Source: a virus
Length of the DNA: 28,224 nucleotides
Reading direction: 5' to 3' (one strand)
IMG/VR virus record: IMGVR_UViG_3300034102_001632
Coordinates: 1-28,224 of that record
Shown: in pieces, positions 5,942 through 27,755 of the stretch
Numbering within the stretch: the stretch's first letter is position 1
How the letters are laid out: every line of letters starts with the position of its first letter
Program-made: the position numbers and the translations under genes
Notes under the pieces: model-generated
The model's input: the letters and a program-made list of their open reading frames with translations, nothing else
What the model was told of the DNA's origin: nothing
The model's database searches: none

Positions 5942-6029
5942 TCTTTTTATATCTTCATTTTTACTTTTTGGTTCCATTGCATTATTCATTTATTGGGGAC
6001 TTACACACGCATATTCAGGAGTTGTATGA
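5934..6029 (+). CDS. 31-residue single-pass membrane peptide
   Basis: ATG 5934 to TGA 6029, overlapping gnd by 4 bases. Almost wholly one hydrophobic helix (NLFISSFLLFGSIALFIYWG), ending in a short polar tail. The AGGAG ribosome binding site of gnd lies in its last codons, so its translation probably couples to gnd. Function unknown. Confidence 0.5.
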   Translation: MSNLFISSFLLFGSIALFIYWGLTHAYSGVV

Positions 6030-7069
6030 GAGTAGGATTAATCGGATTAGGTCGGATGGGAGAAGGAATGTCCCGTCGTATGATGAAGGCAGGAATTGAA
6101 GTCTGGGGTTATAGAAGAAATTATGAGAAAGCACAAGAAGCATATGAGAAGGGATATGTGAACGGTGTCACAACTTCTATACAAACCCTTACTCAAGTGG
6201 TAAAACATACTCAGAGTGGAGTATCAGACAAATATGGTCCAGGCATCTTTATGATGGTTGTACCTGCAGAAACAGTAGAGGAGACAATCAATGAGTTACT
6301 ACGATATTGTAGTGAAGGAGATATTATTATTGATCATGGCAATAGCAATTTTAAGGACAGTCGGAAGAGAGCAGAACGTCTGGCAAAACTTGGTATCCAA
6401 TATATTGATTGTGGCACTAGCGGTGGTGTTTATGGTTTGGATCGTGGATACTGTCTTATGGTTGGAGGTGGAAATACTGCAGTCGCCACTTGTGCAAAGA
6501 TTTTTGATGCACTCTCCCCAGGTCTCGCAGCTGCCACCAGGACTCAATTTAACTCAGACGTAACATCTGCTGAGTTTGGTTGGTTGCATTGTGGTGGTCC
6601 AGGTGCAGGACACTTTGTAAAGATGGTTCACAATGGAATTGAGTATGGTATAATGCAGGCATACGCAGAAGGATTTAATATCATTAAGAACGCCAATGCA
6701 GGTGCTCAGTATGTCAGAGAAGGAGATGCGGAAATTGCCCCAATGGGAGATCCCGAAAGTTATTGTTATGATATTGATGTTGCTGAGGTTGCTGAGTTAT
6801 GGCGTCGTGGTAGTGTGGTTGGGTCTTGGTTACTTGACCTTACTGCTGATGTGCTACGCAGGGATGGTGAGCTTAAACAGTTCTCTGGAGGTGTATCCGA
6901 CAGTGGTGAGGGTCGTTGGACTGTTTCTGCCGCTGTGGATCTGGGGGTTCCCGCTCCTGTCATTACTACTGCGTTATTTGAAAGATTTAACTCACGCAAT
7001 CTCGGATCGTTCGGAGCAAAAATCTTAAACGGAATGCGTTACATGTTTGGTGGTCATCACGTAAGATAA
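6026..7069 (+). CDS. gnd: 6-phosphogluconate dehydrogenase (decarboxylating)
   Basis: 347 residues. It oxidises 6-phosphogluconate to ribulose-5-phosphate plus CO2, making reduced nicotinamide cofactor in the oxidative pentose phosphate pathway. The N-terminal Rossmann motif is GLIGLGRMGEGMSRR (residues 4-18), followed by HGNSNF, the substrate-loop signature GTSGGVYGLDRGY and the catalytic region GAGHFVKMVHNGIEYG, whose Lys and His-Asn match the family active site. It is shorter than the roughly 470-residue E. coli enzyme and resembles the compact form found in cyanophages. Start ATG 6026 has AGGAG seven bases upstream and overlaps the preceding stop; an upstream in-frame start would add 11 residues before the Rossmann motif and is rejected. 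In cyanophages gnd is a known auxiliary metabolic gene supplying NADPH and pentose for DNA synthesis. Ribulose-5-phosphate is also the substrate of the RibB-type domain at 20841-21430. Confidence 0.93.
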   Translation: MRVGLIGLGRMGEGMSRRMMKAGIEVWGYRRNYEKAQEAYEKGYVNGVTTSIQTLTQVVKHTQSGVSDKYGPGIFMMVVPAETVEETINELLRYCSEGDIIIDHGNSNFKDSRKRAERLAKLGIQYIDCGTSGGVYGLDRGYCLMVGGGNTAVATCAKIFDALSPGLAAATRTQFNSDVTSAEFGWLHCGGPGAGHFVKMVHNGIEYGIMQAYAEGFNIIKNANAGAQYVREGDAEIAPMGDPESYCYDIDVAEVAELWRRGSVVGSWLLDLTADVLRRDGELKQFSGGVSDSGEGRWTVSAAVDLGVPAPVITTALFERFNSRNLGSFGAKILNGMRYMFGGHHVR

Positions 7070-7749: not shown

Positions 7750-7773
7750 TGGCCAGTTACTTCACTGGCACAC

Positions 7774-7802: not shown

Positions 7803-7824
7803 AACTAGGTCAACAAACAAAACA

Positions 7825-8733: not shown

Positions 8734-8752
8734 GACTAAAAGTATTTTCTTT

Positions 8753-11365: not shown

Positions 11366-12216
11366 AAAATGATGGATTGAGACCTAAACCAATATCACCA
11401 ACTTATCCACCATATCATAATGGAGAGTATCTTGAAGAGTATTTCTTTAAGAGGTGGAATGAAGAAAGTGTTAAAACTGATAGGGAATATATTGATATTT
11501 TTTGGACAAATAATTTTTGCAATTCTATGTTTGCTGGATTGCAGTATCCAAATATTCAAGAAGAAATTGATAATAACTTAAATCCTAATGGAAAGTATTT
11601 TACAGTATCGCAATTTGATGACGGACCTTTTGAAAAATTTCCTGAAGATACATTAATTTTTTCTGCTGGTGGTAATCGTGAAGGTGAGAATATTGTCCCT
11701 ATACCATTGATTTGTAGTTCTATTCCTAAAGATTTAATACCTAATAAAGAGAAAACTATTTTTGCATCTTTTGTTGGTTCCAGAAATACACATCCTATTC
11801 GTATGGATATGTGCAATCATTTGTCGGAAAAAGATGGATATGAAATTTCTGCAGGAAACTGGTCTACGACAGTTCCTATAGATAACTTTAAAAGATTTAT
11901 TGATATTACTTGTGCCAGTAAATTTGGACTTGCACCAAGGGGATATGGTAAGAGTAGTTTTAGACTTTATGAAATTCTTCAATTGGGAACTGTTCCAGTT
12001 TACATATCGGATATTCATTATCTACCTTGGATGGATGAATTGGATTGGAATGATTTTTGTGTTCCCATTAATGAAGATGAAATAGATCAAATTGATGATA
12101 TACTTAAATCAATTTCTGATGTAGAATATAATAAACTCCTTGAGAATGGTAAAAAAATTTATAGCAAATATTTTTCCCTTGAAGGAATGTTCCAAAACAT
12201 TATCAAAAGAATTTAA
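11353..12216 (+). CDS. Exostosin-family (GT47-like) glycosyltransferase
   Basis: 287 residues. The C-terminal half has the exostosin signature: FASFVGSRNTHPIR, then KFGLAPRGYGKSSFRLYEIL followed by QLGTVPVYISD, the donor-binding part of this GT-B family. The start is a GTG at 11353; GGAGG at 11341-11345 lies 7 bases upstream, and no in-frame ATG gives equal support. It overlaps the previous gene by 13 bases. The N-terminal third is divergent. Sugar specificity cannot be read; exostosin relatives include glucuronyl-, xylosyl- and galactosyltransferases. It begins the strongly AT-rich part of the island. Confidence 0.82.
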   Translation: MALIKNDGLRPKPISPTYPPYHNGEYLEEYFFKRWNEESVKTDREYIDIFWTNNFCNSMFAGLQYPNIQEEIDNNLNPNGKYFTVSQFDDGPFEKFPEDTLIFSAGGNREGENIVPIPLICSSIPKDLIPNKEKTIFASFVGSRNTHPIRMDMCNHLSEKDGYEISAGNWSTTVPIDNFKRFIDITCASKFGLAPRGYGKSSFRLYEILQLGTVPVYISDIHYLPWMDELDWNDFCVPINEDEIDQIDDILKSISDVEYNKLLENGKKIYSKYFSLEGMFQNIIKRI

Positions 12217-12231
12217 AACCTGTAAAAAATT

Positions 12232-12993
12232 ATGACAACATATTACGACAAATTAAAAGAATTACTTACACCATATGATCTTGGATTTACCAAGATGAGA
12301 ATAGGACCTCCTTGTGATGGTGGATATGTGATTTATCAGGAACCTTTGTTAAAAACTAATAGTGTTTATTCTCTCGGAATAGGTCCAGTTTGTGGTTCTG
12401 ATTTTCAATTAGCCCAAATGGGAAAGATTGTTCATATGTATGATGCAGAACCATTTGCACATAATAATCATCCAAATTATCGATTCAAGCAAATTTATGT
12501 GACTTCAGAAGTTATCGATAATGAACTTGAATCTATCGATGATAATAATCTTCTTATGTGTATGGATATAGAAGGTGGTGAATATGAAATTTTGTCTAAT
12601 ATGAAAGAAGAAAACCTTTTAAAGTTTTCTCAGATTTCTATTGAGATTCACTGGATTGGTGGTGAAAATCGTATTGTGGAAGGAGTACCTCAGAATGGTG
12701 GTAGGGCACTTAATGATAATGGTGAGTCCGTCATTAGAATGTTTGAAAAATTAAATAAACATTTCTATCTGTATCATATTCACGTTAATAATGGTGCCAA
12801 CCCATTTGAAGATTTTCCTGATGTAATTGAATGTTCTTATCTAAGAAAAGATATGTGTATTCATACTGATAAGGGAAATTATGTTACTATACATAAGGAG
12901 ACTAAACCATATCCTTTAGTTGGGTTGGATTATCCAAATTACACAGGTCCAAGTAATTTGGCAGTAAATGATAAACTTGATTGGTGGTTATGA
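12232..12993 (+). CDS. FkbM-like SAM-dependent methyltransferase
   Basis: 253 residues. YSLGIGPVCGSDFQLAQMG is a SAM-binding loop, YDAEP the acidic end of strand 2, and CMDIEGGEYEIL is the hallmark D-(I/V)-E-G-x-E segment of the FkbM family (Methyltransf_21, PF05050). FkbM proteins O-methylate sugars. The N-terminal MRIGPPCDGGYV resembles other members. Its last codon overlaps the next start by 4 bases. In this context it probably methylates a hydroxyl of the glycan or a sugar nucleotide; the acceptor is unknown. Confidence 0.75.
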   Translation: MTTYYDKLKELLTPYDLGFTKMRIGPPCDGGYVIYQEPLLKTNSVYSLGIGPVCGSDFQLAQMGKIVHMYDAEPFAHNNHPNYRFKQIYVTSEVIDNELESIDDNNLLMCMDIEGGEYEILSNMKEENLLKFSQISIEIHWIGGENRIVEGVPQNGGRALNDNGESVIRMFEKLNKHFYLYHIHVNNGANPFEDFPDVIECSYLRKDMCIHTDKGNYVTIHKETKPYPLVGLDYPNYTGPSNLAVNDKLDWWL

Positions 12994-14372
12994 TACCTAA
13001 AAATATATTTCAGTCTTGGATAACTAAAGATCTTCATCCAGAAATACAAAAAAAGGTTAATTTAACAAAACAGTTAAATCCTGAATACAATTATCAACTT
13101 TATACTGATTCAGAAATTGATGAATTTGTAAATACTTTTTATCCAGGAGAAGTATCGGAATGTTTTAATAGATTAAATGTTCCTGTAGCAAAGGTTGATT
13201 TTTGGAGATATCTGGTTCTTTACAAATATGGTGGAATATATGTTGACTTGGATTCATCTATCAATACTTCATTAGATAGTTTTATAAAGGAAGATGATAC
13301 TGCTATTATTACAGCAGAAACTAATCCAAATACTTTCGTTCAATGGGCTTTGATATTTGATAAAGAACATCCAATTCTAAACAAAGTTATTGAATTGGTT
13401 CTTGATAATATTCAACATAATTCATATCCAAATGATATATTAAGAATGACCGGACCTCAGGTTTATTCTAGAGCAATAATGGATGTTCACTTTGATTTGT
13501 TTAATGAAAGGTTGGATTTTGAAAGTATAGATCAAAAAACTGATACTACTTTTTCTAAAAATTCTGTTTCTTATAGAATTTATGGAGTTGACTATAATGA
13601 AAACTTTACTTTTAAATTTCCAGAAAGTACATACCTCTATATTGAAAAGGAACCTTGGAGAGATGAATTAAAGAAAAAAGAATTGCTATGCCCAAAGTTA
13701 AATGTTGATAACATTTATATCTGTCATTACAACAAATTAAAAGAGAGAAAACAATCTCTTTTAGATCAATTCAAAGAGGAAAGAATTTACACATATCAGT
13801 TTGTAGAAAATTTTGATAAAAATGAATGGGTGATATCTGAAATAGAAAAAGAATATCCAAGAGTGTTTAGTGAATGGAAAAAAGGAATCGATTCTTATGA
13901 TGATAATGCTCAGAATTCTGAAAGATCATTAGCATTAAAACACGCATCTATACTGAAGGATATTTTTAAAAAACAATATGAGACTTCATTGATATTGGAA
14001 GATGACGTTACTTTATGTGATAATTTTGTAGAATATTGCAATCTTTTTATGGAGCAACTTCCTAAAGATTGGGATATTGCTTGGGTTGGTTCTTGTTTAA
14101 ATTTGCACGAACCAGAAGTTGATGGTAAGTATGTATATAAAACAAATAGAGGTTCTAGATGCACTCACGCTTTTTTGGTTAGTAAATCTATGGTGAATAA
14201 AGTAATAGATTATATTTCTGATATTAATTTACCATCTGATCATTTTTATAATTATCTGATCAAGGAATTCAATCTAAATAATTATTGGTTCGAACCATCA
14301 TTAGCCATACAAAGCTTAGATTTTCGTTCTGCTATTTCCGGTAATTATTGGAACCAAAGTAATATCAATTGA
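12990..14372 (+). CDS. Two-domain glycosyltransferase: GT32-like plus GT25-like
   Basis: 460 residues carrying two catalytic modules. Residues 1-230 are a DxD sugar-transferase domain of the OCH1 / Gly_transf_sug type (GT32): MIPKNIFQSWI, FWRYLVLYKYGGIYVDLDSS with Asp86 and Asp88. Residues 240-445 are a GT25 domain (LPS galactosyltransferase type): NIYICHYNKLKERKQSL, SLALKHASILKDI, SLILEDDVTL with Glu337-Asp339, and CTHAFLVSKSMV. Each domain keeps its acidic motif, so both may be active, adding two consecutive sugars. The reading frame is continuous. ATG 12990 overlaps the preceding stop. Donor sugars are unknown. Confidence 0.85.
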   Translation: MIPKNIFQSWITKDLHPEIQKKVNLTKQLNPEYNYQLYTDSEIDEFVNTFYPGEVSECFNRLNVPVAKVDFWRYLVLYKYGGIYVDLDSSINTSLDSFIKEDDTAIITAETNPNTFVQWALIFDKEHPILNKVIELVLDNIQHNSYPNDILRMTGPQVYSRAIMDVHFDLFNERLDFESIDQKTDTTFSKNSVSYRIYGVDYNENFTFKFPESTYLYIEKEPWRDELKKKELLCPKLNVDNIYICHYNKLKERKQSLLDQFKEERIYTYQFVENFDKNEWVISEIEKEYPRVFSEWKKGIDSYDDNAQNSERSLALKHASILKDIFKKQYETSLILEDDVTLCDNFVEYCNLFMEQLPKDWDIAWVGSCLNLHEPEVDGKYVYKTNRGSRCTHAFLVSKSMVNKVIDYISDINLPSDHFYNYLIKEFNLNNYWFEPSLAIQSLDFRSAISGNYWNQSNIN

Positions 14373-14381
14373 TTTTTAATT

Positions 14382-15227
14382 ATGAAAGTATGCTTCTCTG
14401 ATTTTTGGACACCTTTTGATCCAAATAATAATTTTTTCATTCACACTTTAAGAGAATTATTTGAAGATATTCAAATAGTAAATCCAGAAGACGCTGATGT
14501 AATGTTTTTCAGTGTCTTTGGGAATGAAAATAAATTGTATAAAAATTGTAAAAAAATATTTTTTACTGGAGAAAATATAAGACCAAATTTTAAAACGTGT
14601 GATTATTCCTTAACTTTTGATTTTGAAAGTTATGATGGTAAAAATTTTAGACTGCCTCTTTGGTATTTTTATATTGACTGGTTTAAAGTAAAAACCTATG
14701 ATAATCCTCAATGGTTAATTCCTGAGGATTATCTTTACGGTAAAAATGAATATTCACTAAAAGAAAAAAATAAGTTTTGTTCTATTGTTTATGGGAAACA
14801 AGTTGATTCTAGAATCAATGCAATTCAAAATATTTCCAGATATAAAGAAGTAGATATTTTTGGAAAAGCAAATCCAAATTATAATTTGCCAGATGGAGAA
14901 AAATATAAATTAGATTTGATTTCAAATTATAAGTTTTCTCTTTGTTATGAAAATTCTATAACTCCGGGATACCATACTGAAAAACTTTTACACGGAAAAG
15001 TTGCTGGAAATATTCCAATTTACTATGGTGATAGTACAATCAAAGATGATTTTAATGCCGATTGCTTTATAAATGCAGCAGAATTATCCGATGATGAGTT
15101 GGTTGAATTGATCAAGCAAATAGATTCGGATGAAAATTTATATAAAAAAATCTTTGATGAACCAATATTTAAACAAAAAATATCATTAGAACCAGTTATA
15201 AAATTTTTTAATGAGGTATGTAAATGA
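14382..15227 (+). CDS. GT10 alpha-1,3/4-fucosyltransferase-like protein
   Basis: 281 residues. The signature of GT10 lies at residues 183-217: YKFSLCYENSITPGYHTEKL followed by GNIPIYYGD, with Glu190, Asn191, Glu200 and Lys201 as the conserved GDP-fucose-binding residues. The N-terminal IFFTGENIRPNF also fits the family. It transfers L-fucose from GDP-L-fucose onto a sugar acceptor, normally GlcNAc. The donor is exactly what gmd and fcl, at the head of this island, produce, so the phage seems to carry both donor synthesis and use. It overlaps the next gene by 4 bases. The acceptor is unknown. GT10 is well supported; the 1,3 versus 1,4 linkage is not readable. Confidence 0.85.
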   Translation: MKVCFSDFWTPFDPNNNFFIHTLRELFEDIQIVNPEDADVMFFSVFGNENKLYKNCKKIFFTGENIRPNFKTCDYSLTFDFESYDGKNFRLPLWYFYIDWFKVKTYDNPQWLIPEDYLYGKNEYSLKEKNKFCSIVYGKQVDSRINAIQNISRYKEVDIFGKANPNYNLPDGEKYKLDLISNYKFSLCYENSITPGYHTEKLLHGKVAGNIPIYYGDSTIKDDFNADCFINAAELSDDELVELIKQIDSDENLYKKIFDEPIFKQKISLEPVIKFFNEVCK

Positions 15228-15962: not shown

Positions 15963-16751
15963 ATGATTTATGTAACTGGTTCTAATGGGTTAATTGGAAA
16001 AAGATTTTTGGAATTATTTGATGGTCCAATTACCAAAGTTTCTTATAGAGACAATCCTCAAGATGTTTTTGAATCTCATAAAAACTCTTGTTTAATTCAT
16101 TTTGCTTGGAGTTCCAATACAAGGAATACATATGAAGAGTTTGAAAAATTTGTAAAAAGTGATGTAATTAACAGTAAAAAAATATTTGATTTTTATTCTA
16201 AAAAGAATCCAAATGGAAAAATAATTTTCATTTCGAGTGCTGGTGGACTTTATACTGATTATGAAAGAACCGTTGATGAAAATACAAAAGTAAATTCAAA
16301 GACTCTTTATGGTGATCTTAAATTACAAGTTGAAAGTATCCTAAAAACTATTGATTGCAATAGTATTGTGTTGAGAGTTTCTAATGTATGGGGTGGAAAA
16401 ATAGTATCTTCGGATAGAATTAACGGATTGATTGATAAACTTTTTAATATACTTAATACTGAAAATACAATTGAACTGTATACAAATTTAGATACTAGAA
16501 TTGATATAATACACGTTGATGATCTCATCAATTTAATTCAGAAATGTATAGAAACAGATTTATACATTAAACACGATATGTTTGTTGTTGGATCCCAAAG
16601 TTTGACGATTAAAGAAATTTTAGATAAAATTACTTCTGCTGGATATTTAAATATTAAATTGAGTAGGAAAGAATCTAAGTCTTATTTGCACGTAGAAAAT
16701 AGTAGGGTATCAACGACATTTGATTGGAAACCTAAGTACAAATTGATATGA
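15963..16751 (+). CDS. NAD-dependent sugar-nucleotide epimerase/dehydratase (extended SDR)
   Basis: 262 residues. N-terminal YVTGSNGLIGKRF (GxxGxxG), then IHFAWSSN, IFISSAGGLY and YGDLK, the YxxxK catalytic pair, and RVSNVWGG. It is somewhat shorter than the usual 300-340 residues of the family and is the more divergent of the two epimerase-like genes here. It should act on a nucleotide sugar in the cytoplasm; substrate unknown. Overlaps the next gene by 4 bases. Confidence 0.78.
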   Translation: MIYVTGSNGLIGKRFLELFDGPITKVSYRDNPQDVFESHKNSCLIHFAWSSNTRNTYEEFEKFVKSDVINSKKIFDFYSKKNPNGKIIFISSAGGLYTDYERTVDENTKVNSKTLYGDLKLQVESILKTIDCNSIVLRVSNVWGGKIVSSDRINGLIDKLFNILNTENTIELYTNLDTRIDIIHVDDLINLIQKCIETDLYIKHDMFVVGSQSLTIKEILDKITSAGYLNIKLSRKESKSYLHVENSRVSTTFDWKPKYKLI

Positions 16752-17542
16752 AAGTAGCTCTTTTAGTTTGCGGTCAGATGAGAACATTTGACCATCCAAA
16801 AGTAATAAATTATTTAAATCAATTCATTCAAAAATTTAATTGTGATGTTTTTTTATCAACTTGGAATAATAGAGGAGTTTCTGTTTGGAGTGAACACGCA
16901 TTAAAAAACCAATTAGAAATTCAAGAAAAAGAAAAAAATAAAATTATTACAAGTAATGATATTGAATTAATCAAAAATATTAAAAAATTTAAAATAGAAG
17001 ACTATGAAGATTTTTTAATAAATCAATGTGATTTTGAAATGAGTTCTTTATTAACTCAATCTTCTGATAATTTATATTTCTCAAAAGCAACGAGTATTCC
17101 ATCACTGTATAAACTGTATTCTTCTTTTCAATTACTGGAAGAGTATGTAAATGAAAAACAAATTAAATATGATATAATTATAAAAACAAGACCAGATTTT
17201 CTACACGTCCATACTGATGTGGAAAAATATTTTGAAAGATCTAATGATACTCTTTTTCATATTAATACGGGAATAACATATTGTCCTGATAGAGTTTATG
17301 AAATGTTCTTATTATCTTCACCAAAAATTATGAAAACAGTTTGTGAGTCTTGGTTAAACTATAAAGAATTATTGGAAACCAATTACTCATTGCATATGTC
17401 TAAATTTGATGCCTGTAGGTTAGTATATTCTCAGTGCATATTAAATAATATTAAAATTGAGTCATTTGATAAAGTTCTTGGTGATGTCTTAAGAGTTGAA
17501 AATTATGATGATTATCAGTCGTTTGAAAACTTATTTTTGTAA
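16748..17542 (+). CDS. Putative glycosyltransferase, GQMRTF / TRPD family (copy 1 of 3)
   Basis: 264 residues. Starts MKVALLVCGQMRTFDHP, has CDVFLSTWNNRG near residue 33, and YDIIIKTRPDFLHVHTD near residue 140. This pattern (G-x-x-R-x-F, D-x-F-x-S-x-W, Y-D-x-x-I-x-x-R-x-D) is shared by the genes at 18653 and 19386. It occurs in proteins found in capsule and LPS clusters, and the R-x-D acidic motif is placed like the DxD of GT-A enzymes. No biochemical function is certain. ATG overlaps the previous stop. Confidence 0.6.
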   Translation: MKVALLVCGQMRTFDHPKVINYLNQFIQKFNCDVFLSTWNNRGVSVWSEHALKNQLEIQEKEKNKIITSNDIELIKNIKKFKIEDYEDFLINQCDFEMSSLLTQSSDNLYFSKATSIPSLYKLYSSFQLLEEYVNEKQIKYDIIIKTRPDFLHVHTDVEKYFERSNDTLFHINTGITYCPDRVYEMFLLSSPKIMKTVCESWLNYKELLETNYSLHMSKFDACRLVYSQCILNNIKIESFDKVLGDVLRVENYDDYQSFENLFL

Positions 17543-18652: not shown

Positions 18653-19381
18653 ATGAAAATAGCATTACTTTTAATTGGTAGATTAGATAGTTTTGTTGAT
18701 GACTATCCTTCTTTAAAGGAGTTTGTTCTGGATGATTATTCTCCAGATATTTTCTTTTCTGGACATCCAAATAAAATGGGATTAGAATTTTGTGAGAAAA
18801 AAATTCAAGATCTTTGGAAACCAAAAAAATATATTTTAAGGGAGTATACTGAAAAAGTTAGAAAAGAAGTTCATCCAAACGATGAAAAATTTAATCAATT
18901 TAAAAGATCAGAAACCACACCAAACACTTGGTTGTCTGGAATGTATAATCTTAAATTGGTAAACGATTTGAAAAAAGAATATGAAAAAGAAAATAATTTT
19001 ACATATGATGTTTGTATAAAGGCAAGAACAGATGTCATATGGCACAGTCATATAACAAATGAACAAATTATGTTATCTAATATCGATAACAATATTTTGA
19101 TTCCAACTGCTTGGGACTTTAAATCTGTAAGTCCATATGGAGTATCAGATACTTCAGCTATTTGTAATTCAAGGAGTATGGATTTATATTCATCATTTAT
19201 CAATTATGTCGATGCATATTTTGATGAAGGCAACATTTTTCATCCAGAAACCTTGAATGGAATCCATATAGATAGAATGGGATTGCTTAGAATCCCGGTA
19301 AACACTGGGATTGATCCATTCACAAAGGAACCAAATAAATCTGGATGGTTTGTAATGAATCCTAATAGACGTTTTTATTGA
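18653..19381 (+). CDS. Putative glycosyltransferase, GQMRTF / TRPD family (copy 2 of 3)
   Basis: 242 residues. MKIALLLIGRLDSF at the start, PDIFFSGHPN near residue 32 and YDVCIKARTDVIWH near residue 120 align with the genes at 16748 and 19386. The copies are very divergent between the motifs, so duplication is old or they were acquired separately. It starts one base after the previous stop. Proposed role: sugar transfer in the same glycan; weakly supported. Confidence 0.55.
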   Translation: MKIALLLIGRLDSFVDDYPSLKEFVLDDYSPDIFFSGHPNKMGLEFCEKKIQDLWKPKKYILREYTEKVRKEVHPNDEKFNQFKRSETTPNTWLSGMYNLKLVNDLKKEYEKENNFTYDVCIKARTDVIWHSHITNEQIMLSNIDNNILIPTAWDFKSVSPYGVSDTSAICNSRSMDLYSSFINYVDAYFDEGNIFHPETLNGIHIDRMGLLRIPVNTGIDPFTKEPNKSGWFVMNPNRRFY

Positions 19382-19385: not shown

Positions 19386-20057
19386 ATGAAATTAGCTATT
19401 TGTTTTTTTGGTTATCCAAGATTTTATGATATGTGGCGGGAGAAGTTTGGTAATTTTTATTCTGGATGTGAAGTAGACTTTTATGCTCATTTTTGGGAAG
19501 ATGATAATTTAGATAAAGAAAGATTAATATCTGAATTTAATTTCAAAGATGTAATCATAGAACAACAGAAAACAGATTTTTTAGAACTTCCAGAAGAAGT
19601 AGATTTATCCAAGATTAGTAAAAATATATTTGAAACTCTTTCTCCTCTTTATTCATTAAAAAGAGTTGGTGAATTGGTAAGAAAGTTTGATTCGGAATAT
19701 GATTTTGTTATTATCACAAGAACTGACATTGGTTGTATGACTGATGAAAGTTTGATTGATTATGAATTTAATAAAGATGAACTTTATTTTTCATATGTGT
19801 TAGGTGATGAATGGTTAAACACTCATCTTGATGCTAAGTGGTTTTGTGCCTCTGCAGATAAACTTTTAAACATATGTGACGTATATGATAATTTGACAAA
19901 ATATTTGGTTGATGATAAAATATCTTTATGCCACCATAGATTATTTTTTCATAGTTTAAGAGATTATCGTGATAAAATGAATATGGTTTGTGTAAATTCA
20001 ACTAACACTAACGGTGGTTGGTTTTTTATAAGAAACGGAACACTCTCAGAAATTTAA
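19386..20057 (+). CDS. Putative glycosyltransferase, GQMRTF / TRPD family (copy 3 of 3)
   Basis: 223 residues. MKLAICFFGYPRFYDMW at the start, VDFYAHFWEDDN near residue 30 and YDFVIITRTDIGC near residue 108 carry the three shared motifs. It is the shortest copy, and His-Phe-Trp replaces the Ser-x-Trp of copy 1. Four bases separate it from copy 2, so the two are certainly co-transcribed. Function inferred only from motif placement and context. Confidence 0.55.
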   Translation: MKLAICFFGYPRFYDMWREKFGNFYSGCEVDFYAHFWEDDNLDKERLISEFNFKDVIIEQQKTDFLELPEEVDLSKISKNIFETLSPLYSLKRVGELVRKFDSEYDFVIITRTDIGCMTDESLIDYEFNKDELYFSYVLGDEWLNTHLDAKWFCASADKLLNICDVYDNLTKYLVDDKISLCHHRLFFHSLRDYRDKMNMVCVNSTNTNGGWFFIRNGTLSEI

Positions 20058-20069: not shown

Positions 20070-21497
20070 ATGAACATTTTATTTCCTATTGCTGGTCTTG
20101 GTACTAGATTTAAAAATAACGGATATATTGATCCCAAACCATTCGTAAAGTTTAAGGGAAAACCACTGATTGAGTGGGCTATTTCATCTTTGAAACTTAC
20201 TGGTAAGTATTATGTTATTGTGAATGGTTTAGAGAAAGAATATATTAAAGTTCTCAATACAATTAAAGAAAAATATTATCTTGATCTTGAGATTGTTGAT
20301 ATTGGAAAATCAACTCTTGGTCAAGCAGAGACTTGTCTCTTAGGTATTCAGAAGGCTAATATTGATCCTTCTGAGCAATTGATCATTACTAATTGTGATC
20401 AGTATACTCCTTGGAACTCTAATAAGTTTTTGAGTTTCATTCGTGACAATAATCCTGATGGAGTTGTAAGCACCTACGATCATCCCAATATTCAGATTGG
20501 ATCTGAAAGTCCTTATAGTCATATTGAACTTGACGATAGTGGATATGCAACTCGACTTGCTGAAAAAGTTGCCATCTCATCTCTTGCTCTCAATGGAATT
20601 TTTTATTGGAAAGAGGGTAACTATTTCATTGATAGCACTCAAAGATTAATGAATGATGATAGTGATGCTGGTTGGTCTACTGGTAAAATGTCTTGTGTCA
20701 AAGAAAAGTATGTCTCTTTGACTTACAACTATTTGATTTCTGAAGGTAAAAAGATTATGAATTATCATATGCAAGATGATGAGTTTGTATCACTGGGAAG
20801 TCCAAATGATATTATGTTGCATATTAAGAGACAGAATGTGATGCAGGCTGTTGAAGATCTTCGTAACGGTAAACCAATCGTTATGGTTGATGATTATGAT
20901 CGTGAGTTTGAAGGTGATATTGTTCTTGCTGCAGAGAAGGCAACTGAAGAAAATCTTCTTTTTGCAATGCGCCACGCAAGAGGTTTGATGTGTCTTCCCT
21001 GCACTCAAGAAAAACTTGATCAGTTTGGTATTCCTATGATGCATACAAATGGATGTGATGCATTTGGAACTCCTTTTGCAACCAGTATTGATGCGGTTGA
21101 AGGAGCAACCACTGGTATGTCTGTTAGTGATCGTGTCGCAACTATTAGTACTTTTATTTCCGACACTTCTAAACCATCTTCTCTTGCTCAACCTGGACAT
21201 TTGTTCCCTCTTCGTGCCCGTCCTGGTCTTCTTACCGAACGTCGTGGTCATACTGAAGGATGTGTTGAGATTCTTAAACTTGCAGGTCTCAAGCAAGTCG
21301 GTGTTATCATCGAGATTATGGATGAGTATGGTAAGATGATTAAGGGTGATGCACTTAAGCAATTTGCTGATATCTACAATCTCACTTTTGTTTCTATTGA
21401 AGAACTATATGATGAGGTTTACAATAAGGAATCTACTGGTAGTGTTCCCCTGTCTGCTGTAGATGAAAAAACTCTTGAGTCTATGGCAAAAATTTAA
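20070..21497 (+). CDS. Fusion: sugar nucleotidyltransferase + 3,4-dihydroxy-2-butanone-4-phosphate synthase (RibB) domain
   Basis: 475 residues in one unbroken frame. Residues 1-245 are an NTP_transferase domain: LFPIAGLGTRFKNNGYIDPK with the GxGTR nucleotide loop and Lys23, and ITNCDQ with Asp110 for metal binding. Residues 256-452 are a complete RibB-type domain: VDDYDREFEGD (Arg278, Glu279, Glu281, Asp283), GIPMMHTNGCDAFGTPF, SDRVATI, QPGHLFPLRA and RRGHTEG (His394). All residues I know to be needed for converting ribulose-5-phosphate to dihydroxybutanone phosphate plus formate are present; one usual Asn in the first motif is Phe. In cyanobacteria RibB is normally fused to GTP cyclohydrolase II (RibBA), not to a nucleotidyltransferase. 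There is no other riboflavin gene here. An internal ATG at 20841 sits at the domain junction but lacks a ribosome binding site. A tail of about 23 residues follows the RibB domain. Confidence 0.88.
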   Translation: MNILFPIAGLGTRFKNNGYIDPKPFVKFKGKPLIEWAISSLKLTGKYYVIVNGLEKEYIKVLNTIKEKYYLDLEIVDIGKSTLGQAETCLLGIQKANIDPSEQLIITNCDQYTPWNSNKFLSFIRDNNPDGVVSTYDHPNIQIGSESPYSHIELDDSGYATRLAEKVAISSLALNGIFYWKEGNYFIDSTQRLMNDDSDAGWSTGKMSCVKEKYVSLTYNYLISEGKKIMNYHMQDDEFVSLGSPNDIMLHIKRQNVMQAVEDLRNGKPIVMVDDYDREFEGDIVLAAEKATEENLLFAMRHARGLMCLPCTQEKLDQFGIPMMHTNGCDAFGTPFATSIDAVEGATTGMSVSDRVATISTFISDTSKPSSLAQPGHLFPLRARPGLLTERRGHTEGCVEILKLAGLKQVGVIIEIMDEYGKMIKGDALKQFADIYNLTFVSIEELYDEVYNKESTGSVPLSAVDEKTLESMAKI

Positions 21498-22459
21498 TGA
21501 AGTTTACCACTAGAGCATATAATAGTTTTGCCTTAAATCCTAAAACAAAGGCAAGTATTATTAAAACTAGTGAAGAAGAAAGACTGAAGGGAGAAGCAGA
21601 ATACTATCTGGATCTCCCCGATGATCTTAAAGTCTTCTTTCCTAGAATGATTAATTGTGATCTTACTCCACCATATACTATGGAACTGGAGTATTATGCT
21701 TACAATAATCTTGGAAATGTTATGGTTTCCCCTGATTATGATGATGGTTTTTGGGAAAAGACTTTTGACTTTCTCCTAGGATATATCAATGCTTACAAAC
21801 AGTCAGAATCAATTCCTGCCAATAGGAAAGACTCTCTTTTAATGTTCGTAGACAAAACGGAAAAAGAGTATGTTAAGTTGATGCACGAATTTGACTTTTT
21901 TACATCTTTAAGAGTTCAGGAGGAATTTGTTTTAAATGGAAAACCCCTCAAGTCTTTTAATTTAATCTGGGGAAAACTCAAAGAGTTTATTGAAACAAAA
22001 TTGATTGAAGATAATTTTTATTTCATTCACGGTGATCTTTGCTTCAGTAATATCCTTTATGGTATTAATCCAATTACAGATGATTTAATTCTTAAGATGA
22101 TTGATCCTAGAGGAGTATTTGGTGAGACGAAATACTTTGGGGATCCTTACTATGATCTGGCAAAAATTTCACACTCTTGTAATGGTGGATATGAATACTT
22201 TATCTACGATCAGTTTAAAGTAGACGTTGATTCAAATCAGTTTTTTCTTGATTTTAAAAACGAGTCTAACAAAGATAAAATTAATTCTAAGTTCATAAGT
22301 CTTGTTAAAAAATTTGACTTTGATTATCAGAAGATTAAACTTATTGAAGGATGTATCTTTGTTGGTATGTGTGCCAGACACTATGATAGTTTGGAAAGAC
22401 AAAAGGCTATGTTTATCACTGGTCTTAAAATACTAAATGAAATTTATGAAACACTATAG
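21497..22459 (+). CDS. Small-molecule kinase of the aminoglycoside/choline phosphotransferase fold
   Basis: 320 residues. FIHGDLCFSNILYG is the Brenner-type catalytic loop (HGDxxxxN), and LKMIDPRGVFG the metal-binding strand (IDPRG), followed by GDPYYDLAKISHSCNGGY. The N-terminal half is divergent. The fold phosphorylates sugars, choline or antibiotics with ATP; behind a nucleotidyltransferase, phosphorylation of a sugar or polyol before activation is the natural guess, not resistance. ATG 21497 shares a base with the previous stop, and its end overlaps the HAD gene, so the block is translationally coupled. Confidence 0.75.
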   Translation: MKFTTRAYNSFALNPKTKASIIKTSEEERLKGEAEYYLDLPDDLKVFFPRMINCDLTPPYTMELEYYAYNNLGNVMVSPDYDDGFWEKTFDFLLGYINAYKQSESIPANRKDSLLMFVDKTEKEYVKLMHEFDFFTSLRVQEEFVLNGKPLKSFNLIWGKLKEFIETKLIEDNFYFIHGDLCFSNILYGINPITDDLILKMIDPRGVFGETKYFGDPYYDLAKISHSCNGGYEYFIYDQFKVDVDSNQFFLDFKNESNKDKINSKFISLVKKFDFDYQKIKLIEGCIFVGMCARHYDSLERQKAMFITGLKILNEIYETL

Positions 22460-22802
22460 ATTTTGTTTTGATCTTGATGGAACTTTGTGTTACACAAGAA
22501 AGGAAAATGAACATTACAGTGAAGTAAAACCAATTCCTGGAGCAGTAGAAACCCTTCAGAGGTTAAAATCTGAAGGTCATTATATTATTATTATGACTGC
22601 AAGAAATATGGTTACTCATAATAATAATATTGGTAAAATTATTGCCAAACAATCACCTATTGTGGTAGAATGGTTAAATAAGCACGGTATTCCTTACGAT
22701 GAACTTCACTTTGGAAAACCACTTGCAGATTTTTATGTTGATGATAAAGCAGTCAAATTAGAAGACTGGAATACTTTTAATAAATCTTTGGAGCAATTAT
22801 GA
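22437..22802 (+). CDS. HAD-superfamily phosphatase, capsule-biosynthesis (BcbF-like) type
   Basis: 121 residues, short for a HAD enzyme. Motif I is CFDLDGTLCYTR (nucleophile Asp plus general acid Asp), motif II MTARNM, and the C-terminal acidic motif FYVDDKAV. Proteins of this length with these motifs occur in capsule loci beside sugar nucleotidyltransferases, for example BcbF. It probably removes phosphate from a sugar or polyol phosphate in the same route as its neighbours. It overlaps the kinase gene; ATG 22437 and ATG 22446 are both possible starts with no decisive ribosome binding site. Its stop overlaps the next ATG by 4 bases. Confidence 0.8.
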   Translation: MKFMKHYRFCFDLDGTLCYTRKENEHYSEVKPIPGAVETLQRLKSEGHYIIIMTARNMVTHNNNIGKIIAKQSPIVVEWLNKHGIPYDELHFGKPLADFYVDDKAVKLEDWNTFNKSLEQL

Positions 22803-23623
22803 GAGATTTTTTCTTTGATACAGCCAATGTAGACTTTATAAAATCTACTATGGAAAAATATGGATCTGATATTGATCCTAAATTGGTTCGTGGTGTAACT
22901 ACAAATCCTAATGCATTTAGTAAAGTTGATAAGTATCATCTTGATGAGTGGTTGAATCATGCTGTTGTAATGGGTAAACTTGTTTCCGAAATTCGTGGAG
23001 ACAATGAAGGTGAAATTCATATTCAAGCACCATATTCCTATCTTGACCCAAAAGTTATTCTGGAATATGCAAAAATAATCACTGATGCAACTCAGGGAAC
23101 TTGTAAAGTTGGTATGAAAATTCCTCCATACCAAAAAGTTCTTGAGTATGTCGATCAGTATAATGAATATGTAATTACCAATGTAACTGGTCTTGCAGAT
23201 TCATCAACCGCTCTTAAGTGTTGTACTTATGATGTTGGTTATATCAGTATTATTCCTGGTCGTATGGAAGAAGTTGGTATTGATGCTCAATCAGCAATTG
23301 CATTTGTAAATCAATGTAATTTTGGAAATACTCAAATTATTACTGGAAGTCAAAGGACAACTGAACAAATCATTTATTCTTTCTACTTGGATACCGTTCC
23401 TACAATTGGTGAAAAGTGCTGGGCAGATATCTTCCAAGGTGATAACTTTCAACGTATTCTGAATATTGAATATGGTTATGAACCTGTTGGTCAATTTAGT
23501 CCAACAATTTCACAAGATAATATTAATCTTTCCCTTGCTTTCTTTGAACAAATGGATGGGTTAGGTGATACTGCTCGTAAAGATTTAGAGGAAAGGCTTT
23601 CTAATGAAAATAGCATTTCATGA
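22799..23623 (+). CDS. Transaldolase / fructose-6-phosphate-aldolase family enzyme, divergent
   Basis: 274 residues. FFFDTAN with Asp7, GVTTNPNAF, and VGMKIPP with Lys107 correspond to the DT(A/S), TTNP and VK(V/I)P motifs of the FSA/TalC branch, Lys being the Schiff-base residue. IITGSQRTTEQII matches the later (S/A)SxxT segment. It is about 55 residues longer than FSA or the usual cyanophage TalC (about 215), with insertions in the middle, so it is not the standard phage talC. It is coupled to the HAD gene before it and overlaps the next by 20 bases. A likely role is making or breaking a carbon-carbon bond of a sugar precursor in this island; a pentose-phosphate role as in other cyanophages is the alternative. 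Confidence 0.78.
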   Translation: MRDFFFDTANVDFIKSTMEKYGSDIDPKLVRGVTTNPNAFSKVDKYHLDEWLNHAVVMGKLVSEIRGDNEGEIHIQAPYSYLDPKVILEYAKIITDATQGTCKVGMKIPPYQKVLEYVDQYNEYVITNVTGLADSSTALKCCTYDVGYISIIPGRMEEVGIDAQSAIAFVNQCNFGNTQIITGSQRTTEQIIYSFYLDTVPTIGEKCWADIFQGDNFQRILNIEYGYEPVGQFSPTISQDNINLSLAFFEQMDGLGDTARKDLEERLSNENSIS

Positions 23624-24557
23624 TAATTCTCTTTGTTTGAGAGGTACAACAGTAGCAATTTATGATTGGGCTTATTGGACTCGTCATTATCTTAATGTCG
23701 ATCCAATAATTATGTTCAATTTAAATAATTCAGTAAATGATGCTGGTGTAATTAAAAAATTTGAAAATGAATTTCCAGTGTTTGGGTATTCTAGCACTGC
23801 AGAAATAGATTCTATTTTGAGTCAAAACAAATGTGATGCTTTTTTGATGGAAAAGGGTGGATCACCAGATGGAGTAATTTCTTCCGTATCCAAAAATCTA
23901 GTTAATGCCATTTCTGGTTGGTGGAAACCTGACTGGGTTCATGGTGATGTCTATGCAATGGGATCCAAATGGTTATCTAAACTAACAAATTATACAATTC
24001 CATATGTACCTTATATGGTTCATCTTCCTGAGATTGATAGTGATCTCAGGAAAGATCTTAGTATTCCAAAAGATGCACTAGTAATAGGAAGAAATGGTGG
24101 TTGGGACACTTTTGATATTGACTTTGTAAAAAAAGCAATTAATCAAGTTCTAGAAGAAAGAAATGATATTTGGTTTCTTTTTCAATTTACCGAACCTTTT
24201 ATTCAACATGAAAGAGTAATATATCTTCCTGGTAGTGCTGATTTAAAAACTAAGGTTGAATTTATTAACACTTGTGATGCAATGCTTCACGCAAGATATA
24301 TTGGTGAATCTTTTGGATTGTCTTGTGCAGAATTTTCATTAAGAAATAAACCAGTTATTACTTTTCATAATTCTCCTGAAAGAAATCATATAGATACCTT
24401 GGATGAAAAGGGAATTTATTATGAAAGTTATTCTGACATCCTTCACATCCTCAAAAATTTAGATAAAAATGAAATAAACTCTTTAGAGTGGAATTGTTAT
24501 CAAGAATATTCTCCAGAGAAAGTAGTACAAAAATTTAAAGAAGTTTACTTAAACTGA
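23604..24557 (+). CDS. Glycosyltransferase, GT4-like (GT-B fold)
   Basis: 317 residues. The C-terminal domain has the GT4 pattern: DALVIGRNGGWDTFDI, FQFTEPFI, then INTCDAMLHARYIGESFGLS, whose E-x7-E element (ESFGLSCAE) binds the nucleotide sugar. The N-terminal domain is short, with MKIAFHDNSLCLRGTTVA as acceptor domain start. It retains anomeric configuration if a true GT4 member. It overlaps the aldolase gene by 20 bases. Donor unknown. Confidence 0.75.
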   Translation: MKIAFHDNSLCLRGTTVAIYDWAYWTRHYLNVDPIIMFNLNNSVNDAGVIKKFENEFPVFGYSSTAEIDSILSQNKCDAFLMEKGGSPDGVISSVSKNLVNAISGWWKPDWVHGDVYAMGSKWLSKLTNYTIPYVPYMVHLPEIDSDLRKDLSIPKDALVIGRNGGWDTFDIDFVKKAINQVLEERNDIWFLFQFTEPFIQHERVIYLPGSADLKTKVEFINTCDAMLHARYIGESFGLSCAEFSLRNKPVITFHNSPERNHIDTLDEKGIYYESYSDILHILKNLDKNEINSLEWNCYQEYSPEKVVQKFKEVYLN

Positions 24558-24558: not shown

Positions 24559-25452
24559 ATGAAATCATTAGTAACTGGTGGTGCAGGTTTTATTGGATCG
24601 CACATTGTAGATAGATTGATTGAATTGGGTCATGAAGTAGTCGTGATTGATAATGAAAGTGCTGAATCGAATGAACAATTTTATTGGAATGATAAAGCAC
24701 AAAACTATAAGTATGATATTCGTGACTATGAAAATACACGTCCTCTTTATGAAGAAGTAGATTATGTTTTTCATCTTGCTGCTGAGGCACGTATTCAACC
24801 AGCAATTTTGAATCCGATTGAAGCAGTAAGTACTAATTGTGTTGGTACAGTTACTGTTCTTCAATGTTCTCGTGAGGCGGGAGTTAAGAAGGTAATTTAT
24901 TCTTCAACATCTTCTGGGTATGGATTAAATCAACCACCAAATCACGAAAATCATCCAGACGATTGTTTAAATCCATATTCTGTATCTAAAGTTTCTGGTG
25001 AAAAACTTTGTAAAATGTATACCAAACTTTTTGGTTTAAAAACGGTTATTTTTAGATACTTTAATGTCTATGGTGAACGTCAACCTCTCCGTGGACAATA
25101 TGCACCTGTAATTGGAATTTTTCTTCGTCAACGATCTTCTAAAGAACCCCTCACAATTGTTGGAGATGGAGAACAAAGGAGAGACTTTACACACGTTTCT
25201 GATGTAGTACAAGCAAATATTGTTGCAGCAACTAAAGATGTGGATGATGAATTTTATGGGCAACTTTATAATGTTGGTAGTGGTGTAAATTATTCAATTA
25301 ATCAAATTGCAGATTCTATTTCTGATGAGCAAATAAACATTCCGCCAAGAATCGGAGAATCAAGAGATACTCTTGCTAATAATGGAAAACTCAGAGTTAT
25401 TTTTGGTTGGAGACCACAGGTAAATTTAATGGATTGGATTGCTAAACAATGA
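24559..25452 (+). CDS. NAD-dependent nucleotide-sugar epimerase/dehydratase (UDP-glucose 4-epimerase-like)
   Basis: 297 residues with a complete set of extended SDR motifs: VTGGAGFIGSHIVDRL, DIRDYEN, VFHLAAEARI, YSSTSSGYG (catalytic Ser/Thr), NPYSVSKVSGEKL (Tyr and Lys), RYFNVYGERQ and GDGEQRRDFTHVSDVV. It is close to the GalE/WbpP group by layout, so epimerisation of UDP-hexose at C4 is plausible; other NDP-sugar reactions are possible. It starts one base after the previous stop and overlaps the last island gene. Confidence 0.88.
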   Translation: MKSLVTGGAGFIGSHIVDRLIELGHEVVVIDNESAESNEQFYWNDKAQNYKYDIRDYENTRPLYEEVDYVFHLAAEARIQPAILNPIEAVSTNCVGTVTVLQCSREAGVKKVIYSSTSSGYGLNQPPNHENHPDDCLNPYSVSKVSGEKLCKMYTKLFGLKTVIFRYFNVYGERQPLRGQYAPVIGIFLRQRSSKEPLTIVGDGEQRRDFTHVSDVVQANIVAATKDVDDEFYGQLYNVGSGVNYSINQIADSISDEQINIPPRIGESRDTLANNGKLRVIFGWRPQVNLMDWIAKQ

Positions 25453-26153: not shown

Positions 26154-26187
26154 GCATTTATACTTATTTTGTTAGAGTATTCGAACA

Positions 26188-26215
26188 GAAAGGGGCTTGA
26201 CGCCCCTTTCTTTTT
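26188..26215 (+). terminator. Intrinsic terminator at the right edge of the glycan island
   Basis: GAAAGGGGC (26188-26196) pairs perfectly with GCCCCTTTC (26202-26210) around TTGAC, followed by TTTTT. Nine pairs, GC-rich base near the loop, T tract: a strong rho-independent terminator. Confidence 0.92.
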
Positions 26216-26225
26216 GCTATATAAT
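26197..26225 (+). promoter_or_regulatory. Promoter nested in the terminator, TTGACG-17-TATAAT
   Basis: TTGACG (26197-26202) is the terminator loop plus its first 3' stem base; TATAAT is at 26220-26225, spacer 17. It should start the photosynthesis/redox operon near 26232, 21 bases before the hli ATG. Confidence 0.7.
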
Positions 26226-26252
26226 TGTGTAACAATTCTTAATGAATTTACA

Positions 26253-26447
26253 ATGACTGTAACAACTAATGAATATGGGCAACAGAATATGTTTGCCAAA
26301 GAGCCAACCATGTATTATGAGAACTATGGTATGCTTTCACCTAATCAAGTAAAGGAGCGCACCAATGGACGCTGGGCAATGGTCGGTTTTGTTGCTGGCA
26401 TCATTTCTTATGTTAGCACTGGCAACTTCTTCTTCGGTATCTTCTGA
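26253..26447 (+). CDS. hli: High-light-inducible chlorophyll-binding protein
   Basis: 64 residues. The single membrane helix carries the Hlip/CAB signature ERTNGRWAMVGFVAGI (E-x-x-N-G-R-x-A-M-x-G-F), whose Glu-Arg and Asn bind chlorophyll. Hlips dissipate excess light energy and protect photosystem II assembly; many cyanophages carry them. ATG 26253 fits the promoter just upstream; a longer in-frame reading would start upstream of the terminator. Its stop overlaps the next ATG by one base. Confidence 0.93.
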   Translation: MTVTTNEYGQQNMFAKEPTMYYENYGMLSPNQVKERTNGRWAMVGFVAGIISYVSTGNFFFGIF

Positions 26448-26533
26448 TGACTGAAACTATTTTTACCATTACCTCAGTTGCCTTTTTTGTGCTTCTGTGT
26501 TATGCTGTAGAGAAAGTTGCGGAAACTTATTGA
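26447..26533 (+). CDS. 28-residue single-pass membrane peptide between hli and petF
   Basis: ATG 26447 shares a base with the hli stop, and its own TGA ends one base before the petF ATG. The peptide is [20 protein letters not shown] plus a short charged end. One helix, size and placement recall the tiny subunits of photosystem II or cytochrome b6f, but it does not match any I know. Supported by tight coupling on both sides. Confidence 0.5.
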
Positions 26534-26534
26534 A

Positions 26535-26825
26535 ATGACATTCAACGTTACACTTCAAACCCCTGACGGCACCGAAACCATTATTCAGTGTGCCGAAGAT
26601 CAATATATTCTTGAAGCAGCAGAAGATGCGGGAGTGGACCTTCCTTATTCTTGTAAGGCAGGTGCTTGTTCTTCTTGTGCTGGTAAAGTTGTCTCTGGTG
26701 AGATTGATAATGAAGAACAATCTTTCCTTGATGATGATCAGATGGCAGAAGGATTTGCACTTCTCTGTGTTGCTTATCCTAAGTCTGACTGTGTGATCCT
26801 GACCGAACAGGAAGAAAACCTGTGA
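26535..26825 (+). CDS. petF: Plant-type [2Fe-2S] ferredoxin
   Basis: 96 residues. The cluster ligands are Cys40, Cys45, Cys48 and Cys78 in [13 protein letters not shown] and ALLCVAYP, the C-x4-C-x2-C-x29-C pattern of photosynthetic ferredoxins. It accepts electrons from photosystem I and passes them to reductases. Acidic surface ([14 protein letters not shown]) as expected. ATG 26535 rather than an upstream in-frame start, which would read back into the membrane-peptide gene. It overlaps the next gene by a GTGA junction. In cyanophages petF is thought to feed phage bilin reductases or other reductive steps. Confidence 0.95.
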
Positions 26826-27100
26826 GAAGTGCTGACTGGTTGGGACAACTTTCTATTGCCCTTCAAGAACTTAAATGGACTGGAGAAGATGAAATTGTGG
26901 TTGAAATTGGTGGTGTAGCAGTAACTGGAACTGCAACTCACCCAGATGCAAATGTAAAGTGGGCAAAACCATTTGGAACCGTATCCTATCAGAACGATGC
27001 TTTTATCGTAATCAAAAATAAAACAAGAAGTCCTATGGTCTTCTCCCAACCCAATCCAGAACTTAAACAACAACACTCTTACAAAGGAGAAAAACAATGA
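26822..27100 (+). CDS. 92-residue protein of unknown function between petF and hli
   Basis: GTG start at 26822 overlapping the petF stop by 4 bases. Beta-rich middle ([17 protein letters not shown], then [20 protein letters not shown]) and a polar end; no Cys, no signal or membrane segment. AAAGGAG for the next gene lies in its last codons. Its place inside a photosynthesis/redox operon suggests a related role, but I recognise no family. Confidence 0.7.
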
Positions 27101-27216
27101 ACAAAATTTTTACTGAAAAAGCAGAACGTATTAACGGTTGGGCTGCGATGATTGGATTCGTTGCTGCTGCTGGTTCGTACCTTGTAACTGGTCAAATTAT
27201 TCCTGGCGTATTCTGA
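27097..27216 (+). CDS. hli: Short high-light-inducible protein
   Basis: 39 residues with the Hlip signature EKAERINGWAAMIGFVAAAG (Glu, Asn-Gly, Ala-Met-Ile-Gly-Phe), here with Trp in place of the usual Arg after Asn-Gly. AAAGGAG lies 9 bases upstream; ATGA overlap with the previous gene. It is among the shortest Hlips and consists of little more than the helix. Its stop TGA overlaps an ATG (27216). Confidence 0.9.
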   Translation: MNKIFTEKAERINGWAAMIGFVAAAGSYLVTGQIIPGVF

Positions 27217-27227
27217 TGGAGGTTAAA

Positions 27228-27755
27228 ATGCGTAGTGAAGGATATACTGTTCCTGAAGTTCAATTTCAGTTTCGTGAGAATGGTGAGTTTGTAAACCGTA
27301 CAACTTCAGAACTCTTCAATGGAAAGCGTGTGGTCATTTTTAGTCTGCCTGGTGCTTTCACTCCTACTTGCAGTGCCTATCAGCTTCCTGGATTCGAAGA
27401 GAGATACGATGACTTTATTAGTCTTGGCATCGACAATATTTACTGCATCTCTGTTAATGATGGGTTTGTGATGAATGCCTGGGCACAGGACCAGAACATT
27501 GATAAGGTCAAACTCATTCCAGACGGCAATGCTTATTTCACACGTTCTATGGGAATGCTTGTCAATAAGTCTAACCTTGGTTTCGGCGATCGCTCTTGGC
27601 GTTATGCTGCGGTCGTGGATAACGGAATCATCGAAAAACTATTCGTTGAAGAGGGGAGACGGGACAATGCCGACACCGACCCTTATGAGCAAACTACTCC
27701 GGAAAATGTTCTAGAGTATGTGTCAGCAAATGTAAAAGTCGGCACTACAGTTTGA
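27228..27755 (+). CDS. Prx5-type peroxiredoxin
   Basis: 175 residues. FSLPGAFTPTCS contains the P-x3-T-x2-C active site with peroxidatic Cys48 (Pro41, Thr45), the PGAFTPTC form typical of type II / Prx5 peroxiredoxins. Later FGDRSWRYAAVVDNG matches the fold. It reduces H2O2 and organic peroxides using thioredoxin or glutaredoxin. A second Cys is present (YCISVND) but not at a clear resolving position. ATG 27228 is chosen because GGAGG lies 4 bases before it; ATG 27216 is the alternative. Last gene of the operon, ahead of the terminator at 27777. It would protect photosystems while phage keeps electron flow running. Confidence 0.9.
   Translation: MRSEGYTVPEVQFQFRENGEFVNRTTSELFNGKRVVIFSLPGAFTPTCSAYQLPGFEERYDDFISLGIDNIYCISVNDGFVMNAWAQDQNIDKVKLIPDGNAYFTRSMGMLVNKSNLGFGDRSWRYAAVVDNGIIEKLFVEEGRRDNADTDPYEQTTPENVLEYVSANVKVGTTV

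Follow-up and report, generated by a model that had tools for sequence, protein, structure and literature searches.

Closest described systems

To our knowledge, 3,4-dihydroxy-2-butanone-4-phosphate (DHBP) synthase, RibB, has so far been met only in riboflavin synthesis. Among phage sugar pathways, the arabinose module of RB69 offers a close parallel to the locus considered here, comprising a SIS-domain isomerase (ORF055c), a nucleotidyltransferase (NT)-kinase fusion (ORF53_52c) and a HAD protein (p051) (PMC6024577). Arabinosyl-hydroxymethylcytosine has been shown chemically in RB69, and its authors propose that the arabinose-5-phosphate isomerase homologue and the NT-kinase protein give rise to UDP-arabinose (PMC6024577). 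In the glycan cluster of Synechococcus phage S-SRM01 there is a comparable set consisting of a SIS-domain protein, an NT-kinase fusion and a phosphatase. The GDP-octose route of lincomycin (LmbR, N, P, K, O) follows an analogous logic of transaldolase, kinase, phosphatase and nucleotidyltransferase (PMC5854111, PMC12945683), although RibB is absent there and the likeness drawn here, from papers, is one of logic.

The window referred to below is the whole stretch of DNA analysed, positions 1 to 28,224 (28,224 nucleotides) of IMG/VR record IMGVR_UViG_3300034102_001632, from a marine cyanobacterial virus. It contains four frames (fusion, kinase, HAD and aldolase) that overlap end to start and encode the following activities:

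20070..20816, plus strand: sugar nucleotidyltransferase domain of the fusion (residues 1-249); PF00483 above cut-off, structural match to 4evw, unfused relatives
20817..21497, plus strand: DHBP synthase (RibB) domain of the fusion (residues about 250-475); PF00926, TIGR00506, catalytic residues, structural match
21497..22459, plus strand: putative APH/choline-kinase-like kinase; start overlaps the fusion stop (TAATG), kinase motif, homology to the APH part of RB69 ORF52c
22437..22802, plus strand: putative small HAD phosphatase, EcbF/BcbF-like; TIGR01689, relative of RB69 p051
22799..23623, plus strand: transaldolase/FSA-type class I aldolase of a distinct subfamily; PF00923, Lys107, fold

Several features of this arrangement recall RB69. 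An NT, an APH-like kinase and a small HAD occur together, the NT is fused or adjacent to a partner, the family of the first enzyme acts on ribulose-5-phosphate, and both sets would serve to decorate a phage product. The kinase and HAD match their RB69 counterparts by profile (E 2e-19 and E 1e-19, respectively), while for the NT the likeness, to RB69ORF053c, is a fold-level match only. Both profiles also match Enterococcus phage 9183, and the kinase profile matches S-SRM01. Unlike in RB69, RibB and an FSA-type aldolase replace the arabinose-5-phosphate isomerase, the SIS domain present in ORF055c was found in none of the island proteins scanned, and the cassette sits in a glycan island rather than beside DNA-modification genes. 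The family assignments suggest a nucleotide-sugar cassette of phages in which the first enzyme is the unexpected element.

A recurrent fusion of nucleotidyltransferase and RibB

Positions 20070-21497 (plus strand) translate as a single stop-free frame of 475 aa, in which the NT spans residues 1-245 and RibB residues 256-452. Pfam recognizes both parts, NTP_transferase (PF00483) at residues 9-184 with 23.0 bits against a cut-off of 21.2, and DHBP_synthase (PF00926) at residues 259-447 with 218.7 bits against 26.4. Both domains are formed in the AlphaFold2 model (mean pLDDT 84.3), the RibB half matching solved RibB structures with Z about 31 (1.5 A) and the NT half matching 4evw with Z 27. The NT signature (GLGTRF...KP) and the NCDQ motif are largely conserved among relatives, and no NT equivalog model reached its cut-off for the window NT. 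Unfused relatives of this domain adjoin RibB, or lie near it, in four viral loci (L012, L021, L024 and L028).

The same fused frame is present in the cultured Synechococcus phage S-SKS1 (HQ633071, SWZG_00042), where it is 90.7% identical and lies in the same cassette order, and in nine IMG/VR contigs (L003-L011) at 77-93% identity, two of these copies being cut by a contig end. A sequencing frameshift, a misassembly or chance is therefore ruled out as the origin of the fusion. A second start of translation inside the frame, yielding the RibB half alone, was also rejected, because the nearest in-frame methionine (residue 258) is missing in one of the contigs (L008) and so is not conserved.

The original prediction, made from the window sequence alone, had described an NT and a complete RibB in one open frame, with both catalytic motifs intact and in a glycan-island setting, and had named a frameshift joining two genes as one way in which this could be wrong. 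Translation, Pfam, the S-SKS1 and contig copies and the predicted folds bear out the fused frame, no joined-gene artefact is seen, the motifs of both halves are in place, and the island context holds. Its further remark, that it knew of no described fusion of this type, needs qualification. As a sequence the fusion is not new, since it is present in GenBank (S-SKS1), BFVD (M4QPK3) and PHROG 3980, annotated as no more than a DHBP synthase in S-SKS1 and as of unknown function in PHROG 3980; a paper describing it was not found. Searches of the openly licensed literature likewise brought up no account of this fusion, of a cassette with these five parts, or of RibB as a member of any nucleotide-sugar pathway.

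Large proteins of the giant viruses Indivirus and Orpheovirus (BFVD A0A1V0SE20, A0A1V0SE67 and A0A2I2L4Y7) also have fold matches to the fusion, either RibB-like or NT-like, and the Orpheovirus protein is annotated as lumazine synthase.

Conservation of the cassette

The fusion belongs to a larger conserved unit made up of RibB, NT, an APH-like kinase, a HAD phosphatase and an FSA-type aldolase. Scanning viral sequences with the aldolase gave 34 loci, and RibB and the kinase adjoin the aldolase in 33 of them; the remaining one (L014) begins inside the kinase, at a contig end. A separate viral scan with RibB, which shares many contigs with the first, gave 14 cassette-type loci, all with the aldolase, as well as six other matches that had no further cassette gene within the available stretch. 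Two gene orders are seen, NT-RibB-kinase-HAD-aldolase and RibB-kinase-NT-HAD-aldolase. In one locus (L007) the block of fusion, kinase, HAD and aldolase is kept while nearly all neighbouring glycan genes are different.

Some variation is seen. In L012 the NT stands apart, as a gene of its own about 4 kb beyond the contiguous RibB, kinase and aldolase genes, and this is also the one locus with a different HAD, the same HAD being found directly ahead of the aldolase in all other cassette loci examined. No NT was found within the stretch available for L056. No isomerase is conserved in the cassette, and the genes shared by all of the 18 loci compared do not include a reductase. Right after the aldolase, freshwater-type cassettes (L032, L039 and L042) have another NT together with a small protein that by eye is cupin-like, and in one of them (L032) the interval between RibB and the kinase holds, at 7502-7840, a small protein built from short GSPLATL-like repeats.

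Outside viruses, a scan with short exact patterns from a diverse aldolase alignment, which may miss distant members, covered 84,980 bacterial and archaeal genomes and returned a single relative, in a Planctomycetota MAG (L064). A profile search of 392 Planctomycetota genomes found the aldolase in this same genome only, and a wide bacterial spread of the cassette is rejected on these counts. Besides a HAD, an aldolase and an NT, the cellular locus encodes a protein of 817 aa in which RibB, NT and kinase domains follow one another. RibB and NT are thus fused in two opposite orders, NT-RibB in marine phages and RibB-NT-kinase in the MAG, which argues that the two work together. By eye, a transketolase split into N and C halves, a zinc alcohol dehydrogenase and a reductase of RmlD-like type can be recognized upstream of the cellular cassette (L064, 779-5226).

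A separate subfamily of RibB

The RibB part scores 186.8 against the NCBIfam ribB model TIGR00506, above its cut-off of 177.45, and possesses all of the expected motifs (DREFEGD, GHLFPLRA, RRGHTE and the later catalytic Glu). Numbering follows what we take to be the E. coli RibB sequence, readable over its residues 15-206 against our alignment. On this basis, 11 of 11 catalytic residues are kept (R37, E38, E40, D42, T107, H136, R150, H153, T154, E155 and E174). In a comparison of 23 cassette RibBs with 36 other RibBs, the catalytic residues considered are unchanged in the cassette proteins, and the equivalent of His153 is often Gln in the others.

Phylogenetically, the cassette RibBs fall on one side of a branch with support 100/99, in a tree whose comparison set is mostly Planctomycetota with a few others, and on sequence grounds they are a separate subfamily. 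They are like RibB and RibBA in fold, catalytic residues and curated family score, and unlike them in having an NT rather than GTP cyclohydrolase II as partner, in their separate clade, in their phosphate-site residues and in having no riboflavin genes nearby. Positions at which only the cassette proteins differ are V66 (M), S89 (D), T149 (E or D, with G in one), G151 (R or Q) and D159 (E or Q), and in nearly all of them the GGVL stretch ahead of Arg150 has become GLLx (GV146-147 to LL). Those changes that map to positions 146-151 adjoin the phosphate-binding Arg150 and could alter substrate binding.

Such residues on either side of the phosphate-binding arginine (T149 to E/D, G151 to R/Q, GV146-147 to LL) raise the prospect of a diverted enzyme that would act on ribulose-5-phosphate or a larger ketose phosphate and release something other than DHBP, for example a 1-deoxy-ketose phosphate or the branched intermediate that precedes formate loss, for processing by the aldolase, kinase, HAD and NT. 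Single substitutions (G108S or D113G) let E. coli RibB support formation of 1-deoxyxylulose-5-phosphate in vivo (PMC3424233). We nevertheless regard this diversion as a live but unlikely alternative: the compared catalytic residues are all unchanged, Gly108 is retained in every cassette RibB, and the window protein passes TIGR00506.

The intact motifs are equally what would be expected if the RibB half raised flavin during infection as an ordinary auxiliary metabolic gene, with the fusion incidental, and a demand for flavin during infection is plausible. The original prediction had kept such a simple supply role as its alternative. Three observations make it highly improbable. Neither GTP cyclohydrolase II (PF00925) nor lumazine synthase (PF00885) is present in 14 cassette virus records, one of them the whole genome of S-SKS1, although the host may supply these steps; the MAG that holds the cellular cassette has a second RibB elsewhere (427 aa); and the cassette RibBs form their own clade tied to the same sugar genes. 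Together with the conserved cassette, these points favour the role outside riboflavin that had been foreseen.

The partner enzymes

The kinase motif (HGD-x4-N...D) is invariant in our alignment (A7), and the protein is a homologue of the APH portions of RB69 ORF52c and the S-SRM01 NDP-sugar synthase. The window kinase has no match to PF01636 at E 0.001, and the S-SRM01 relative scores 33.7 against a cut-off of 23.2, with a profile link of E 8e-25. For the small HAD the best family match is TIGR01689, at 96.1 bits, which is under the cut-off of 162. With scores below the curated cut-offs, the APH and EcbF/BcbF assignments of the window proteins are putative. Small HADs of the cassette kind (22437-22802 in the window; NC_020851) are labelled "phosphoheptose isomerase" in phrog_1238, in RefSeq (RB69p051) and in phage 9183, yet they match HAD phosphatases, and the label is probably a misannotation that has spread.

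The aldolase exceeds the PF00923 cut-off (43.5 bits against 27) and is modelled with a transaldolase fold (pLDDT 93, Z about 22). At 13 active-site positions compared with T. acidophilum transaldolase and with what we take to be the E. coli FSA sequence, all 19 cassette aldolases are invariant. Residues shared with both families include the Schiff-base Lys107 (19/19), the donor-pocket Asp7, Asn36 and Thr130, and the phosphate-pocket Arg155, Ser184 and Arg186. Two positions set the cassette enzymes apart. Gln76 (19/19) corresponds to Glu in transaldolases (Ta E60) and to Gln in FSA (Gln59), while Ile152 (19/19) corresponds to Phe in transaldolases (Ta F132) and to Tyr in FSA (Tyr131); residue roles in FSA have been described (PMC13259622). 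A TalB/TalA-type transaldolase is rejected, as the catalytic Glu and Phe are replaced by Gln and Ile in 19 of 19, and the FSA equivalog TIGR00875 gives 29.7 bits, far under its cut-off of 245.95, with the Gln retained and Tyr131 replaced by Ile. The protein is probably a Schiff-base aldolase that is neither a standard transaldolase nor an FSA. An attempt to read the product off the sequence failed, because the enzyme has neither the transaldolase Glu/Phe pair nor the Tyr131 of FSA.

A proposed nucleotide-sugar pathway

The reading that we prefer, to which we assign a probability of about 0.55, is that the five-activity cassette makes a nucleotide-activated sugar from ribulose-5-phosphate for the phage glycan island, with the fusion serving as both entry and exit point. 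It is favoured because RibB, kinase and aldolase are so consistently linked in the two viral scans, because the four-gene block is retained in L007 amid changed neighbours, and because of the two fusion orders and the overlapping frames. The separate RibB clade, the likeness to the RB69 and S-SRM01 modules and the absence of riboflavin genes from the 14 records argue in the same direction.

In the scheme envisaged, the phage 6-phosphogluconate dehydrogenase (gnd) and host pentose-phosphate enzymes would provide ribulose-5-phosphate, which the RibB half would convert to DHBP and formate. The class I aldolase, through Lys107, could then couple the DHBP unit, or a close product of it, with another small carbonyl compound, and a branched or deoxy sugar phosphate would result. 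The kinase would place a phosphate on the reducing end, the HAD would remove the distal phosphate, and the NT would act last, on a sugar-1-phosphate-like product, to form an NDP-sugar that an island glycosyltransferase, perhaps of the phrog_13607 family, would transfer. The reaction types are those of the respective families; the order of steps is a guess, as are the second aldolase substrate, the nucleotide and the sugar structure. We see about even odds that DHBP synthase has been recruited by viruses as the step that commits a dedicated nucleotide-sugar pathway, one that includes an unusual FSA-like aldolase and ends in a branched or deoxy sugar donor not described before.

Several points run counter to this pathway. 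As a ketone, DHBP is no obvious partner for an aldolase, and a sugar-1-phosphate would call for an aldose, yet the cassette has no conserved isomerase. The different HAD of L012, the L056 stretch in which the NT was not found, the illegible aldolase reaction and the below-cut-off scores behind the APH and EcbF/BcbF assignments also count against it.

A shorter route would have the NT act on the C4 keto-phosphate or its reduced form, to yield an NDP-tetrose or tetritol-like donor with no chain extension. The logic resembles that of fused CDP-ribitol synthases, and the fusion of NT to RibB in two domain orders would fit it, as would the several short-chain dehydrogenases within the island. DHBP, however, is already phosphorylated, which would leave the conserved kinase and phosphatase, and the equally conserved aldolase, without purpose, and there is no reductase among the universally conserved genes. 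We consider direct activation improbable, somewhat more so than a diverted RibB. It was the four-carbon product, or a relative, that the original prediction suggested as the NT substrate, for glycan decoration; a role outside riboflavin, in a glycan-island setting, has gained support, while the conserved kinase, HAD and aldolase, which it had not mentioned, point to a longer route with the NT at its end.

If the longer pathway is correct, DHBP synthase would serve metabolism in a second way, beyond vitamin B2, and viruses would encode a route to a sugar donor not yet described. The cassette would further lend weight to a rule for phage sugar cassettes in general, in which a constant NT-kinase-phosphatase triad is combined with a swappable first enzyme acting on ribulose-5-phosphate. 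The unit comprises just four genes in the window, is available from a cultured phage (S-SKS1) and starts from a known metabolite, so its product is open to direct assay.

The surrounding island

Further genes in the window that may bear on the cassette are as follows:

5993..7069, plus strand: gnd, 6-phosphogluconate dehydrogenase, outside the cassette; PF03446 and PF00393, about 80% identical to other cyanophage gnd
16748..17542, plus strand: putative glycosyltransferase family (phrog_13607); PHROG match, such a cluster in 15 of 18 cassette loci
23604..24557, plus strand: putative GT-B-like glycosyltransferase; weak PF00534 match (19.5 bits, below cut-off) and synteny, adjoining the cassette in S-SKS1-like phages
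24559..25452, plus strand: NAD-dependent nucleotide-sugar epimerase/dehydratase-type SDR; PF01370 at 199.9 bits, cluster in 12 of 18 loci compared

The product of gnd, ribulose-5-phosphate, is the substrate of RibB, and gnd, which is common in cyanophages, would raise its level. Relatives of the protein encoded at 16748..17542 are found at 18653-19381 and 19386-20057, and from its context this phrog_13607 family is perhaps a candidate user of the activated sugar.

Elsewhere in the window, a GDP-fucose branch is apparent at 8705-15227, with a GDP-mannose dehydratase, a FucT-type fucosyltransferase and, where GDP-fucose synthase would stand, an epimerase. Adjoining the island at 26169-27755 are a high-light-inducible-type protein, a 2Fe-2S ferredoxin and a peroxiredoxin-like Redoxin protein. 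An outer-membrane porin (OprB and SLH domain) is encoded at 2573-4111; it is 75.5% identical to a porin of Synechococcus phage S-SRM01 and is rare among phage records, six of which have any match.
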